A stretch of 46,804 nt of DNA, taken from positions 1-46,804 of the forward strand of contig LCQK01000003.1 of assembly GCA_001004105.1 (NCBI GenBank). Reading direction: 5' to 3'. Shown here one piece after another: positions 1-26,586 of this stretch. Each line of letters opens with the position of its first letter. Position 1 is the stretch's first letter. Origin of the DNA: Candidatus Jorgensenbacteria bacterium GW2011_GWB1_50_10 (GTDB lineage Bacteria; Patescibacteriota; Minisyncoccia; UBA6257; GWB1-50-10). Both the position numbers and the translations under genes were made by a program. Under the pieces are notes generated by a model. That model had not been told where the DNA came from, did no database searches, and saw only the letters and a program-made list of their open reading frames with translations.

Positions 1-3000
1 CTTCTTTTTGCCAAATCCACGGACGGCGGCTCATCCTGGACAACATCCACAATTGATGCCGTAGCTGCCACGGGTGCCCATAGTTCTATTGCTGCCCCCA
101 CCGGCACCTCCACGATTTATGTGAGTTATTGTGGTCAAGGAGCTTGTTCTGGATTGGGCGGCATACTCAATTTCGCAAAATCAACAAACGGCGGCGTAAG
201 TTGGACTACATCCACAATCGATAGTGGGACTGGCCTTACCGGCTTCTACACCTCCATCACTGCCCCCTCCGGCACCTCCACGATTTATGTGAGTTATCAA
301 GACGGTGTACTGACCGATCTCCGCTTCGCCAAATCTACCTCCGGCGGGGAGCCGGCTTCCTTTGCCGCAGGTGAAGACACTCCAATTACGGGCTTGGACA
401 AAGATACCACCAAACGCCTCCGGCTTGAGGTTTCCAATGAGGGCACCGCCTCTCTTGCGGCCCAGTATCGGCTGGAGTACGCGACGGGAACGGGCGGTCC
501 CTGGACGCAGGTTGGACCCGCTGCCGATTGGGTGATGGCGGATTCAACATACTTGACCGACGCCGCTTCAACAACAAACGTTGCGGGCGGTCTTTTCGAC
601 GAAAACATCACCTTCCTGGCCGGCCAGGTGAAGGATACGGGAAGTGAGACTGCCTCAATTACGCTTGGCACAACTAATTTTACCGAACTTGAATACTCCA
701 TTGCCGCGACCTCAACCGCACCTGACGGGCAAACATACTATTTCAGGGTTACCAACGCGGGAGCGACAACAAACTTTGTTTATCAGGTTTACGCTTCAGC
801 GACGCTCGCGGCGACGGCGAATATCACCATTGCCGGCACCTGCAAGCAGTATGACCGAACCACGAATTGCAGTAACGGCCTGGCAGTCAAGGCCGCGTCA
901 GGAGGCACGCTTCTCGGGCAGAGCACGACGACCGCAAGCGGCGCTTGGACTATTTTTGATATTCCTAAACCGTCATCCGGGGCAGTCATTACCGCTTTTC
1001 TTGACGGGGTCGCGGCAAGCGGAAGAGGCGCTGCGGTCACCAAATACGACGGTTCAGGCAATATTAGCGGATTGGAGATTTACGAAAAACATCTTACTAT
1101 CGGCTCCACCGGCGATAATCCGACCGTCACCAACGCCGATTTGAGCTCGTATGACAATTCTTCCTCAACGGACGCCGACGTGTTTTTTGACGTGGATGCG
1201 GATAATAATTTAATTCTTGATGCAAACAGTAATTTCACCGACGAAGTTTTCCTGATTAAAAGCGGCAACAACACTTACCGGCCGGATTCCACGGGGGCGG
1301 GCAAGCGCATTTACACCCACCATTTCAGAAATAACGGCACGACAACGGCCGACGGCGTGATTTGGCGCGTGGGCGGCGACTGGTTTTCAAACGGCACCTA
1401 CACCCAAGGCACTTCCACGATTGAGATGGCCTCCTCCAGTGCCGTACTTGATACCGGCGGCACGCTCTATAACTTAACTGCCTCAAGCTCCGCTTCAATT
1501 ACTGCTTCTTCCAGCTTGACGGTTTCCAATATTTTGGATGCGGAGGGAACTTTGAATATCAACTCCGGTAAAACCGTAACCGCGCCCGGGACGATTACAT
1601 TAAACGGCACTATCTCCGGCGCCGGCACCTTAGTTATTCCCGACACTTCATCGGGCCCGGGCACAACCGGCACGCTTTCTTCAATTGTCCGCTACAGCGG
1701 CCCTACTGCCAATATTGCCTCAAGCACATTGGATGCTCGTACTTACGGTGGTTTGGTTGAGATATATGTCCCTGGAAGAACAGCTTATCTTTCAACCGGC
1801 AGCTATAATTTCAACGGTGGTTTGAATATCATCTCCGACGGCGCCGGGGCTTCTAGTTTAAATGCCGCCCAGTCCAATCCGACGGTGAATATTTCGGGTG
1901 CCGCCTTGGACTTTGCCGGCGCCGTACCTAGCGGGACGATTCTCTCCGGCACCGGCACTTGGAGCGCTTCCACTTCGGTTGACTTCACGGCCGGGACTTA
2001 TACCGCCGCAAGCGGCAATACATTTGTGTTAAACGGCAGCGGTCAGACACTCACAGCAAACAGCAATTCCTTTAGTAATTTGAATTTGACCCCGTCCGGC
2101 GGGACACTCACCTTAGCCGACAGCAACACCGTATCCGGCAACCTTTCTTTGGGCGGCGCCGGGACGGTTTCGGCCGGGGCGACCACTCTTACCATGACCG
2201 GCACCAGCGCCACGCTTACCGGCGGCGGCAAGACGCTTAATAATCTCACCGTGGATTCCGGCGGCACCGTCACATTGGATAATTCGGATTTGACCGTTGG
2301 TGGGACTTTGAACATCGCTGGCGGCACCCTTTCCCTTGCCTCCGGCCGGACGCTCACTCATTCAGGGAGCACGCTCACATTGGGCGGCACCATTTCCGGC
2401 ATCGGCAAGCTAATCTACCAATCAGGAACTGCTTTTCCTTCAGGCGGCACGATTTCCTCGGTTTTGCGGTTTGATTCCACGAACAACGACCAAACAATGG
2501 GAGCGAGAACTTACGGCGGCGCGGTGGAGCTTTATAACGGAGAGGGAACGAATCGCGCCGTCACCATGGCCGCTGGAGTGCAAACGCTCTCATCACATCT
2601 CACTCTTTTTGCCGCCGGCGGAGGCAACATAACGCTCGATGCCGCGACCAACAATCCGACGGTCGGCGTTACCGGCAACACGGCCTACAGCGGGGCGGGC
2701 GGCGGCAGTGAAATTGTGAGTGCTTCCTCAACTTGGACGAATTCCGGCGATCTCACCATTTCCGGCGGAACGTTTACCGCTCCATCAAGTACTTTGTCAA
2801 TTGGCGGCAATTACACGAACAACAACGGAACTTTCACCCACAATTCCGGCACGATTCTTTTGAACGGCTCCTCCCAACAAACCCTCGCCGGGACGCTCTC
2901 CGGCTCCTCCGCTTTCAATAAACTTCAGATTAACAATAACTCCGGCGGCGAGGCGACGCCGAGCGTAATAATCGGCGCGACGACCACCGCGACAACCTTT

Positions 3001-16231: not shown

Positions 16232-16675
16232 ATGAAAGTAATTTTTCTCCAAGACATCAAAGGCATCGGTAAAAAGTACGACATCAAAGACGTGAGCGAT
16301 GGCTACGCTCGTAATTTTTTGTTGCCGAAAAAACTGGCCGAGGCGGCAACCGGCGCGGCGCTGAAGAGTGTGATGGAACTAAAATCAAAAATGGAAGCAG
16401 AACGCGGAAAGCTTGTTTCGGAACTGAAAGCGGAAGCGGAAAAAATTGGGGGCAGGAAAATTATTTTCAAAGTGAAGACCGGCGATAAGGGCGAGGTATT
16501 TGGTTCGGTCACGGCGCGCGATATCAAAGACGAATTGGAAAAATTAGGCGTTCGTCACGGCGTTGCTGTAATACCTAAACCAATAAAAACCCTTGGTGAA
16601 ACGAAAGTGGAAATTAATTTCGGTGAAGGCGTGAAAACCTCGGTAGACATTTTGGTGGAAAGCGACGAGAAATGA
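16232..16675 (+). CDS. rplI: 50S ribosomal protein L9
   Basis: [40 protein letters not shown]. Confidence 0.95.
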
Positions 16676-16716
16676 TGTCCTCAAAAAACGTCCATATGGA
16701 CGTTTTTTGAGGACAT
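16675..16716. terminator. 42-bp perfect palindrome, probable bidirectional terminator between convergent rplI and rpmA
   Basis: ATGTCCTCAAAAAACGTCCATATGGACGTTTTTTGAGGACAT is self-complementary and contains A6/T6 tracts; also a member of the CATATG palindrome family. Confidence 0.7.
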
Positions 16717-21309: not shown

Positions 21310-21731
21310 AGAATAGTTTGCAAAACGCCAAGAGGTGGCTGAAACAGGCGGAATATGATTTTGGAGAAGCCGAGAAACTTCTTCGCGGAAATGATTTTTC
21401 TTATGCCTGTTTTTTTGCCGAGCAGGCCGCCCAAAAATCGTTAAAAGCGTTTCTTTTTTGGCGAGGCAAACGGTTTGTCGCCATTCACTCGGTCGGCGCT
21501 CTTTTGGAAGAGGCGTTTCTTTTGGACCCCGCTTTCGGAGAATTGATCGGGAAAGGGAAAAAATTGGACCATTACTATCTCGCCTCTCGCTATCCCGACG
21601 CCCTGCCGGAACCCGCCATTCCTTCAGAATCATATGTCAAAGAAGATGCGGAAGGAGCCATAACGATCGCCGGGGAAATTTTAAACCGGTCGCGCGAAAT
21701 TATTGGAGGTGGCGGTTCGCGGGGTTTATAA
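21306..21731 (+). CDS. HEPN domain protein (HepT-like toxin)
   Basis: WLKQAEYDFGEAEKLLRGNDFSYACFFAEQAAQKSLKAFL...; overlaps the MNT ORF by 4 nt; candidate RX4H motif RFVAIH. Confidence 0.85.
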   Translation: MKNSLQNAKRWLKQAEYDFGEAEKLLRGNDFSYACFFAEQAAQKSLKAFLFWRGKRFVAIHSVGALLEEAFLLDPAFGELIGKGKKLDHYYLASRYPDALPEPAIPSESYVKEDAEGAITIAGEILNRSREIIGGGGSRGL

Positions 21732-21745
21732 TTATAACGCAAACC

Positions 21746-24679
21746 ATGATTTTCAAACCCAAAATAAGAAAAAAACTCCTGTTCGCAATCGTGATTTTAG
21801 GATTGGTTTTTGGGAATGTTTCGCTCGCCAATTACCTTTACTATGATGCGGGCACCGGCCGGTCAACGTTCAGTAATACAGTAGAAGTGCCGGGATTGTA
21901 TTCAAGCGGCAACGTCGGCATCGGGACGGCGAGTCCTGGGTATAAGTTGGATGTAAAAGGAATATCTGCGACGCGTTCAGCTAACAATGATAACCTCATT
22001 ACTGTGGCTGGGTACAACGGTACCGCAGGAGGCTATTTTGATGTCTACTACGACAACAATCTTAAAATCCATCTTAGCGCTGGACCCGCTTCCGGGGATA
22101 CTTATTTCCTCAATAGCAACGTCGGCATCGGGACGACGGGGCCGGGGGCGAAACTAGATGTGGCTGGTACAACGCGTTCTCAAAGATACGATTTATCCAA
22201 TTCCGGTTCAATGGATAATACTTGGACTGCTGGTGGAGTTGGTTCATGGAGATTGATTTTGCCCTCCGCCACAAATCCTGAAGGATTCGGAGCCGGGGCT
22301 GGTGGGTTTGGAATTTATAACAACACAGATCTTACCTATCACCTGATTTTTGGCAATAATGGAACCCAGACGTTTGGCGGCTCTACATATTTTCCCGGGA
22401 GCGGTATCTGGAATTCTTCCGGCAACGTCGGCATCGGGACGACGGGGCCGAATGATAAATTGTCTGTCAGCGGGTCAATTGGTATAGAAGGGGGCACGAT
22501 AAACGCGTATAACGACGCCACTTTATACGTTACAGCAAATAACAACAACGACTGGGGATTGGTTGTAAATAAATATAATGCAGGATCAACCGAGTACGGC
22601 GTTGATATAAGAATGGCGGATACCGCATCTTACGCATTAAGAGTTTTGGGGAGCGGCTCTGAAAAATTCAGGGTGGACGGCGCTGGAAACTTATTCATAA
22701 CAGGCGGAGCAAGGGCCGAATTGGGCTTGCCTGATCAATGGTATAGTAGACGCAACATCACCACCGATACCGCCTATTGGACCGGTTCGCAGGGGTGGGG
22801 CTATATGGATATGAACAGTACGCTCCCGGAATATGGCTCAACCTTCTTTGATATATGGGGCACGGGGATGCCCGGAAACCCTTTTGGTGCTGGCTATTCC
22901 CACTTTCAAGGGCTTCAGGCATACCATTACTGGAACGGCACAACCGGTCATGGTTCTCAACTTGTCTTTGACAATGCCGGGTATGGAGGAACCGCGCCGC
23001 GTATGTATATGAGGAGCATCTGGGGCGGCGGCTGGGGCGGATGGGTTGGAATCTGCATGGCCAATGGCACGAATTGTCCGGCCGCCGGCGATACCACTCC
23101 TGATACGATAGCCGACGACGGGGTGATTACCACGGGCGAGATGGTCTCTACAGTGATGGTGGAGGGCGAGAACATCTCGCTTCTTACCAACAACTCCGGC
23201 TACATCACCGACGGCAACACGGGCTGGGATAATTCCTACGGGTATATCACCCCTTCCGGCAATGTAGCAACGGCGGATAAAGTAAATGGTTATAGTTCTG
23301 GTCCTGATAATTCTCATCCGGGTACGGGAATGCGGCCCTTCTATTCATGGGCCCTCGGCTGTGCTTACAACGGCTCTGGCGGATGCTATTCCAATGGTAT
23401 AAGCGTTGGTTCTCATCCGAGTGACCAAGCTTACGGATTTCAAATAGTGCAAAACATGTGGGATGACAGATTGTACTTCAGAAGATACAACGGGGGATGG
23501 CAGGACTGGTTTACGGTGATAGATTCCGGTACCATCGGCTCCCAGTCGGTGAATTATGCCGCAAGCGCCGGGAGCGTGGCTTGGGGAAATGTTACAGGCA
23601 GGCAAACTTGGCTGACCGCATCTAATTTAATTGAGGAATTAAGTAATTTTAATTCTTCTAGACCAAGCGGTTTTTATCAGGGTTACAACGCGTCAAACGC
23701 CCCCGGTTCTTCTTGGTACAACATGCTTAACGTGCGCCATTCCAATACCGGCAACGACCACGGATTCCAAATTGCCGCAAGTTACTATGATGAAAATGTC
23801 TGGACTAGAACATATCAAGGCGGTTCAGGAGCAGACAACGGAACCTTTACGCCTTGGAAAAAATTGGTTCGAGAAGAAAGTGGAGGCGGTGTTATAGTCG
23901 GCACAGGTGGTACCTCATCGAACTCCCGCACCCTCACAATCCTGAATTCTGGATCCGGTCAAGTCAACTTCGGTCAGTATCCCGGCAATTGGACGTCGGC
24001 TTTGCAGATTCAATCAAGCGACGCCACTCCAAGATTTTTGTGGATGGCCCCATTAGACGCAAATTCTTCCGCAAATGCGCGAATTGTTGCTGGGGGTACC
24101 AATCTTGACATTTATGTTGGCGCTAGTGCAGGTAGTGGAGGTAGTTGGTCCGCGACATTCAACTCTAGCGGGAAAATCGACGTTAGCACTGTTGACCCCG
24201 TCTATACGATCGGCGGCACCCGTTACGCAACTTATATGGCCGGCATGACCGGCGTCAAAGAAGAAACCACCGGCGTCATCAACTTATTGACGTCCGACGT
24301 CAATATATTAAAATATGTTATTGATTTTAATAAAACCGAGGTCGGTTCAGATTTGTGGTTGTTTGCTCAAGCCATTAACGTTGACGGCCGCTCGTATATC
24401 GCCGAAGACGGTAAAGTTTACCGCACCACCGCCGAAGAATTGTTTAACAATTTTAGTGTGCTCCTCACGCCGAATTTTGCCGGCAACGTTTGGTACGAAA
24501 AAGACGTTGAAAACCGCAGGATAACGATTCTCGCCATACCAGATACTAAATACCAGATACTAGATACTAATTACGAAGTTTCCTATCGCTTAACCGCCCC
24601 CCGTTTCGACTGGAAATATTGGACCAACTACTCCAACTCAAACCAAGAGGGACTCAATTTGGATAAATCGTTAAGATGA
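21746..24679 (+). CDS. Secreted adhesin-like protein with VGIGTT repeats
   Basis: True start likely the ATG at 21746 (MIFKPKIRKKLLFAIVILGLVFGNVSLANY signal peptide), in frame with the supplied 21458 ORF; shares 21-nt repeats with 18400..20589. Confidence 0.8.
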   Translation: MIFKPKIRKKLLFAIVILGLVFGNVSLANYLYYDAGTGRSTFSNTVEVPGLYSSGNVGIGTASPGYKLDVKGISATRSANNDNLITVAGYNGTAGGYFDVYYDNNLKIHLSAGPASGDTYFLNSNVGIGTTGPGAKLDVAGTTRSQRYDLSNSGSMDNTWTAGGVGSWRLILPSATNPEGFGAGAGGFGIYNNTDLTYHLIFGNNGTQTFGGSTYFPGSGIWNSSGNVGIGTTGPNDKLSVSGSIGIEGGTINAYNDATLYVTANNNNDWGLVVNKYNAGSTEYGVDIRMADTASYALRVLGSGSEKFRVDGAGNLFITGGARAELGLPDQWYSRRNITTDTAYWTGSQGWGYMDMNSTLPEYGSTFFDIWGTGMPGNPFGAGYSHFQGLQAYHYWNGTTGHGSQLVFDNAGYGGTAPRMYMRSIWGGGWGGWVGICMANGTNCPAAGDTTPDTIADDGVITTGEMVSTVMVEGENISLLTNNSGYITDGNTGWDNSYGYITPSGNVATADKVNGYSSGPDNSHPGTGMRPFYSWALGCAYNGSGGCYSNGISVGSHPSDQAYGFQIVQNMWDDRLYFRRYNGGWQDWFTVIDSGTIGSQSVNYAASAGSVAWGNVTGRQTWLTASNLIEELSNFNSSRPSGFYQGYNASNAPGSSWYNMLNVRHSNTGNDHGFQIAASYYDENVWTRTYQGGSGADNGTFTPWKKLVREESGGGVIVGTGGTSSNSRTLTILNSGSGQVNFGQYPGNWTSALQIQSSDATPRFLWMAPLDANSSANARIVAGGTNLDIYVGASAGSGGSWSATFNSSGKIDVSTVDPVYTIGGTRYATYMAGMTGVKEETTGVINLLTSDVNILKYVIDFNKTEVGSDLWLFAQAINVDGRSYIAEDGKVYRTTAEELFNNFSVLLTPNFAGNVWYEKDVENRRITILAIPDTKYQILDTNYEVSYRLTAPRFDWKYWTNYSNSNQEGLNLDKSLR

Positions 24680-25724: not shown

Positions 25725-25757
25725 TAAATATAGTGAGATCGAACCTCACTATATTTA
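25725..25757. terminator. Strong hairpin overlapping the RAYT stop codon
   Basis: TAAATATAGTGAG-ATCGAAC-CTCACTATATTTA, 13-bp perfect stem. Confidence 0.7.
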
Positions 25758-26486
25758 TTCGAGCGTAATATTTTTAATTTCTTCAAGGTCCATCTCTTTC
25801 AGCCACTTAATCGTGTCTTTCTTGTATTGCTCCGGCCCGCCGAAAAACTCTGTCAAAAATTCTCTCTGCGTCACTGACGGAAAATTCCTTTTCCCGATGT
25901 AGTCGAGATAACTGCTCCACCGATATTTTTCTAAGAATTTCCCCGCTCCCTTCCAATCTATGGTCTTCGCAAGACCATAGTTGTTGCGGCCATAGTTCCG
26001 CCACTCCGGCATAACCAGATCCAACGGATTTAGGTGGATATAGTAAGGAAGATGAATAAAGTGTGATTCTTCGGTAACAGGAATCAACTTATAGCGTCCC
26101 TGAAATAACGCCCCGCTCCGTTTATATCTTTCGTTGAAATATTTTGCGTAACCCATGTTTAATTTTTTGATGAATTTTGTTATCCCGTCATCAGATTTAG
26201 GCTTTATTAGTAGGTGATAGTGGTTTGGCATTAGACAGAAAGCCAGAATTTCAACCAGCAACTTTCTCGGTTTTCTCTCCCCAGCAATATATGGTCTTGC
26301 GATGTCCATAGATTGCTTTTGGCGATTGAAGTAATAAGTGTTGTTATTTGGCGGTTCGAGGTCGTTAAATTCAAAGAGATTATGAACAAACCTGAAGTAA
26401 TCTCTATCGTCCATGAAGATTTTTCTTTTATCAACACCGCGGTTTAGAACGTGATATACATTTCCAGCAACGATTTTTTCTCTCAT
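25755..26486 (-). CDS. REP-associated tyrosine transposase (RAYT, Y1/HUH family)
   Basis: NVYHVLNRGVDKRKIFMDDRDYFRFV...LAFCLMPNHYHLLIKP...: HUH-type HYH motif and family layout. Confidence 0.92.
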   Translation of the reverse strand: MREKIVAGNVYHVLNRGVDKRKIFMDDRDYFRFVHNLFEFNDLEPPNNNTYYFNRQKQSMDIARPYIAGERKPRKLLVEILAFCLMPNHYHLLIKPKSDDGITKFIKKLNMGYAKYFNERYKRSGALFQGRYKLIPVTEESHFIHLPYYIHLNPLDLVMPEWRNYGRNNYGLAKTIDWKGAGKFLEKYRWSSYLDYIGKRNFPSVTQREFLTEFFGGPEQYKKDTIKWLKEMDLEEIKNITLE

Positions 26487-26586
26487 ACAATAATTGTAAT
26501 ATATGGTCTTGCGATGTCCATAGATTGGTAATCCACGGGGAGGGGTTTGGTATAATTTTAGAAAGACCTAGAAGGCGATTAAGACA

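Follow-up and report, generated by a model that had tools for sequence, protein, structure and literature searches.

In the REPtrons formed by repetitive extragenic palindromes (REPs) and REP-associated tyrosine transposases (RAYTs), a Y1 HUH transposase is accompanied by two cognate flanking palindromes that co-evolve with its gene, and more than 100 further copies are dispersed (Nunvar 2010, PMC2817692; structure 4er8). The remarks on TnpA-REP subclass 2.4 in Quentin et al. (2018, PMC6006769) describe REPs that flank the gene and also occur inside it, between the HuH motif and the catalytic tyrosine, in a peripheral variable region and with the frame intact. The transposases of IS200/IS605 elements have the Y1 HUH fold; these elements carry hairpins close to the gene and occur in multiple near-identical copies. 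The Rickettsia palindromic elements and intragenic REPs are short palindromes lying in frame within unrelated genes (Di Nocera 2013, PMC3733652), and the CGTC elements of this type have no known dedicated transposase. Here we report on a stretch of 46,804 nucleotides (the window) on contig 3 of the genome of Candidatus Jorgensenbacteria bacterium GW2011_GWB1_50_10 (675 kb, 98.6% complete), whose relatives are Patescibacteria (Parcubacteria and others). It carries a RAYT-like transposase gene with copies of a palindrome in front of it and within it. Across the homologues of this gene, the palindrome inside the coding sequence commonly matches those flanking the same gene and rarely those of other loci, and it is as DNA, rather than as peptide, that it is constrained.

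Subclass 2.4 is the nearest precedent for a REP inside the gene, and an in-frame REP within a tnpA-REP gene is common to both. However, the two coding sites found here lie elsewhere, V1 (residues 58-67) before H89 and V2 after Y149; the host belongs to the Patescibacteria, the hairpins have no GTAG feet, and there is co-variation between coding copy and flanks, which the remarks on that subclass do not describe. These remarks were all that a search of openly licensed papers for coding REPs in Patescibacteria RAYTs returned. Set against them, the fixed site, the co-variation and the Patescibacteria-wide spread appear to be new, while in-frame REPs in tnpA-REP genes were already known. With REPtrons the family shares the transposase type and, at most V1 loci, two cognate flanking palindromes co-evolving with the gene; in the window itself the downstream palindrome differs in sequence. 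The dispersed copies number from 0 to about 10, there is no GTAG head, and a third cognate copy stands in the coding sequence. GT[AG]G was found at the hairpin foot of 2 of 120 flanking palindromes, under the chance level of about 7.5%, and a CGTC tag at one end of 2 of the 120. From IS200/IS605, with which it shares the fold and the nearby hairpins, the gene differs in being single in its genome, in having no TnpB and in its additional coding hairpin. Because the window protein scores 40 bits with the curated NCBIfam RAYT model NF047646, short of the cut-off of 80, and because the GTAG feet are absent, the gene and its palindromes are here termed a RAYT-like, REPtron-like unit that we do not file as a classical REP system. 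An earlier sequence-only reading of the window had called the motifs REP-like; this stands insofar as they are cognate palindromes of the gene, but the foot that defines classical REPs is missing.

That reading had also taken the gene for a RAYT, and here it was right. The protein has a PF01797 domain with intact HUH and tyrosine residues, and AlphaFold2, run on the family alignment, gave a model (mean predicted local distance difference test, pLDDT, 89.4; predicted template modelling score 0.86) whose top Foldseek match was the E. coli TnpA-REP bound to its REP (PDB 4er8, E 1e-5). The positions of the gene and its palindromes are collected in Table 1. The exact 30-bp direct repeat previously noticed in the window is real; on the coding strand it occupies nucleotides 172..201 (M) and -40..-11 (U) in gene coordinates, although the upstream copy ends 11 bp and not 12 bp before the start. 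Within it, TATGGTCTTGCGATGTCCATAGATTG is exact at 26290-26315 and 26502-26527 on the plus strand, and 100 shuffles gave zero chance matches to it. The third, inverted copy reported at 25954-25980, with 10-bp arms and two differences from the core, was likewise confirmed: TATGGTCTTGCGATGTCCATAGATTG recurs with 2 differences at 25954-25979 on the minus strand, and 25958-25980 holds the perfect palindrome CTATGGTCTTCGCAAGACCATAG, whose arms are of that length. As a DNA hairpin this V2 copy has an energy of -9.2 kcal/mol (z -8.2), and it matches the gene's own upstream palindrome. It corresponds to about residues 169-178 of the window protein, where every other aligned homologue has a gap. The suggestion that the coding copies are in-frame insertions therefore holds for V2, which is absent from the homologues, but not for V1, which is shared across the family at a fixed site and is no private insertion. 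The palindrome over the stop codon (D) is unrelated in sequence to U and M and unique in the genome, and stands where relatives carry another cognate copy; it is possibly a terminator, or a downstream copy that has since been replaced. Elsewhere in the window, a palindrome with 19-bp arms (beginning ATGTCCTCAAAAAACGTCC) lies at 16675-16716 between large open reading frames.

Table 1. The transposase gene, its catalytic residues and its palindromes in the window
Feature	Position	Strand	Remarks
RAYT/TnpA-REP-like Y1 HUH transposase gene	25755..26486	-	243 amino acids; PF01797, E 2e-11
U, upstream palindrome copy	26498..26527	-	identical to M over 30 bp; the ATG at 26486 follows after 11 bp; position typical of the family
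M (site V1), coding copy, codons 58-67 (QSMDIARPYI), directly before the HUH motif	26286..26315	-	exact 30-bp repeat of U
HUH motif HYH, codons 89-91	26214..26222	-	H89 and H91 invariant in 90 homologues
Presumed catalytic tyrosine, codon 149 (YIHLNP)	26040..26042	-	Y149 invariant in 90 homologues
Site V2, inverted second coding copy (YGLAKTIDW), after the catalytic tyrosine	25953..25979	-	8-codon in-frame insertion
D position, palindrome overlapping the stop codon	25725..25757	not assigned	13-bp arms

The evidence for matching comes from the family. In the aligned proteins, the stretch that follows the first helix and precedes the HUH strand varies in both length and sequence, and in many loci the V1 segment, taken as DNA, is the palindrome standing before the start and after the stop of the same gene. 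We gathered 105 distinct homologous loci and scored the coding segment against the flanks without gaps, counting a score of at least 13 as a match; this threshold was picked on the 105 loci and then applied unchanged to 54 fresh loci, which came from a class search outside the order and the earlier sets. The V1 segment matched its own flanks in 66 of the 105 loci, compared to the flanks of other loci in 4.3% of cross-locus pairs, and the fresh set behaved in the same way (42/54 against 6.6%). Where both flanks of a V1 locus were available, the match was on both sides, U and D, in 56 of 61 cases; a second tally put the V1 loci with matching U and D at 55 of 61. The palindromes differ from locus to locus, even between paralogues of one genome, and are alike within a locus: in 13 genomes with 2-4 paralogues, each coding copy scoring at least 13 fits its own flanks best. 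A genome-wide pool of REPs as the source of the matching is ruled out, because paralogues in one genome keep different palindromes. For 15 loci the available sequence showed no flanking pair and no coding match, and some of these loci were at contig ends. One RAYT clade of the window's own family (L054, L056, L057, L060, L062, L065 and L107-L109) had no detected palindromes, flanking or coding; the sequences of L107 and L109 end near contig ends. Two other loci, L037 and L052, carry the upstream palindrome doubled and in inverted orientation, resembling a REPIN.

The coding copy is fixed in place and in frame. When whole coding sequences were scanned for the gene's own flanking palindrome, there were 65 hits at V1 (reference residues 55-69), hits at V2 (reference residues 160-174) in five loci, and 1 stray hit outside both. 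The window gene and L058 have V1 and V2 together, L059, L100 and L101 have V2 only, and the two occurrences of V2, in the window gene and in the clade of the other four, are far apart on the tree. The centre of the palindrome falls in codon phase 0 in 61 of 64 cases. The score of the V1 segment, 23.1 on average, fell to 10.1 after synonymous recoding, and the observed value was reached in only 1 of 1320 recodings. Meanwhile, the encoded peptides vary widely (DIARP, EVQLR, DIGCP, AIARP), and in the AlphaFold2 model pLDDT falls below 50 only at residues 51-55 and 58-66, which take in the V1-encoded loop; V2 lies inside a block with values of about 75-78. The V1 peptide is therefore predicted to be a disordered surface loop, and since recoding abolishes the match, the constraint is on the DNA and not on the peptide. 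Coding and flanking copies change together in more than 100 related genes, and this likewise indicates a role at the DNA level rather than in the protein.

How the copies have been inherited can be partly read from the tree. The label 'coding copy present' changes 16 times on it, compared to 31 times in shuffles, so that the coding copy is for the most part inherited, and has been lost or gained repeatedly; as the tree has an arbitrary root, the changes are not assigned to either direction. Four loci of 72-91% identity (L079, L080, L083 and L089) illustrate how far the palindromes can move together: comparing most members gives 11-13 differences in 25 positions, and comparing the copies within a locus gives 0-3. 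In addition, about half of the non-complementary stem positions of coding copies (30/61) are common to a flanking copy. Such shared mismatches suggest copying, but selection on a conserved bulge is another possible source of them.

Dispersed copies were sought in the relatives with patterns for three palindrome types and a reversed control pattern. They were found at low copy number in genomes G511, G505, G035, G486 and others, while the reversed control gave 0 hits. The copies outside the RAYT gene are mostly intergenic in G511, whereas several in G505 and G035 lie in frame within genes, identified by Pfam as PGK, CysRS, LigA, a DegT-like aminotransferase and the CCA-adding enzyme. Two reading frames are used by these in-gene copies, giving SYEAKPR or LTRLSLV. 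Compared to PDB homologues, the CCA-adding enzyme of G035 is longer by an insertion of 13 residues at the palindrome; the palindromes in PGK, CysRS and LigA are likely to be insertions too, if not clean ones. Short palindromes in frame in unrelated genes make the Rickettsia-type elements (PMC3733652) the nearest precedent for this part of the system. Here, in contrast to those elements, a cognate RAYT shares the genome and the palindrome, and there is no CGTC tag; unlike these relatives, the window genome has no in-frame copies in unrelated genes.

Some further observations were made on such genes. In two genomes a palindrome peptide is encoded in the same variable linker of CysRS, as NLTRLSLV in G505 (L148) and, in G513 (L154), as SYEVQL from a copy whose right arm has decayed; this linker may be an insertion hot spot. 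An insert of a different kind, QSNNSTEIASPSARNDTE, lies in frame in pgk of G513 (L146) and looks to be a further coding-repeat family. In G035 (L131) a dispersed palindrome is in frame in a protein of VGIGTT repeats, in style like the large open reading frame at 21458-24679 of the window.

Taken together, we consider it probable, though well short of certain, that this is a REPtron-like unit of Patescibacteria, in which a Y1 HUH transposase has cognate hairpins upstream, downstream and in its own reading frame that are kept alike as DNA by copying. All copies, folded as single-stranded hairpins, are most likely recognised by the transposase. The palindrome would then be copied from one site to another through the enzyme's cut-and-join activity, meaning its cleavage and strand transfer, or else through short-tract conversion. 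Occasionally new sites would be seeded, in a second loop of the gene itself, as in V2 of the window, and in some relatives at intergenic positions and in loops of housekeeping genes, where only the insertions that keep the frame would survive. Binding, cleavage, mobility and copying by this enzyme, as well as any regulatory benefit, are what we infer from sequence comparison. More tentatively, the coding palindrome could be a built-in copy of the enzyme's target that links site and enzyme as one inherited unit and serves as both donor and acceptor when the ends are rewritten; the same enzyme would then spread in-frame palindromes through housekeeping genes, making this a Rickettsia-type system with its transposase identified. 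This extension is possible, but we consider it less likely than not.

Several observations weigh against copying among cognate hairpins. In the window, the sequence of D differs, and thus the three-fold match there is of U, M and V2 only. The genome search that the sequence-only reading had proposed, carried out for the U/M palindrome at up to 3 mismatches in 21 bp, found nothing beyond the three copies in and beside the gene, so the window's own genome has no dispersed copies at this level. For both reasons the support from the window is weaker than that from the family. The same reading had held that its proposal would fail if the motif were absent elsewhere and the coding copies were conserved as protein; the motif is indeed absent elsewhere in the genome, but conservation as protein is not seen in the coding copies, which co-vary with the flanking palindromes instead. 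Across the family, the V1 match is missing in 39 of 105 loci, 21 of which have flanking palindromes only, and the coding copy is thus dispensable. As for the housekeeping genes, the copies in PGK, CysRS and LigA are in length-variable linkers and only the CCA-adding enzyme shows a clean insertion. The SecA of G505 has the palindrome with no net insertion compared to PDB SecA, and was not counted.

The main rival is autoregulation under selection, which we regard as rather unlikely and which may act together with the copying proposed above. The transposase would bind the coding and upstream palindromes, as mRNA or single-stranded DNA, and so hold down its own expression or control when cleavage occurs at the fork, and the match would be kept by selection instead of copying. 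This would agree with the constraint at the DNA level and with the position of the upstream copy, which lies over the leader at a median of 21 nucleotides 5' of the ATG across the family. It would also agree with the clade of L058, L059, L100 and L101, which has V2 where V1 no longer matches (L058 having both), as if one coding copy were kept while moving. However, the 21 loci with flanking palindromes and no coding copy are difficult to reconcile with such a role, a concerted change of three copies with two arms each would be hard to achieve by point mutation alone, and the shared stem mismatches are more easily explained by copying.

Neutral selfish insertion is an improbable alternative. 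According to it, the palindrome lands repeatedly where its own gene encodes loops, and is tolerated there, the match reflects recency, and the coding copy has no function. The loops encoded at V1 and V2, both of which would be disordered, the lineage-specific insertion of V2 in the window and the occurrence of dispersed palindromes in the variable linkers of other genes would all be expected from such a process. It does not readily explain an identical site and frame in more than 100 loci, and the strong clustering on the tree indicates that most copies were inherited, yet the flanks are still matched after deep divergence. The four loci compared above already have the look of orthologues whose V1 copies go back to a common ancestor and whose U, M and D have changed together. 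It is very improbable that the encoded peptide is a specificity loop and the DNA match a by-product: the segment adjoins the catalytic core and is found in most members, but the peptide varies freely, the match is lost on recoding, and the predicted disorder gives no support to a structured recognition module. Chance, or ordinary protein conservation mimicking a repeat, is negligible and already refuted by the shuffles and by the cross-locus and recoding controls, the latter two ruling out protein conservation as the source of the match, and we found no point in its favour.

More than 100 independent loci hold a DNA recognition site inside the gene of the enzyme presumed to recognise it. This embedded site evolves together with those on the flanks, and the loop it encodes is free to change. 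How REP palindromes and RAYTs change their specificity together can now be tested, as can the origin of in-frame palindromes in bacterial genes such as those of Rickettsia. The many distinct pairs of enzyme and palindrome, including paralogues of one genome, offer reference sets for swap experiments.
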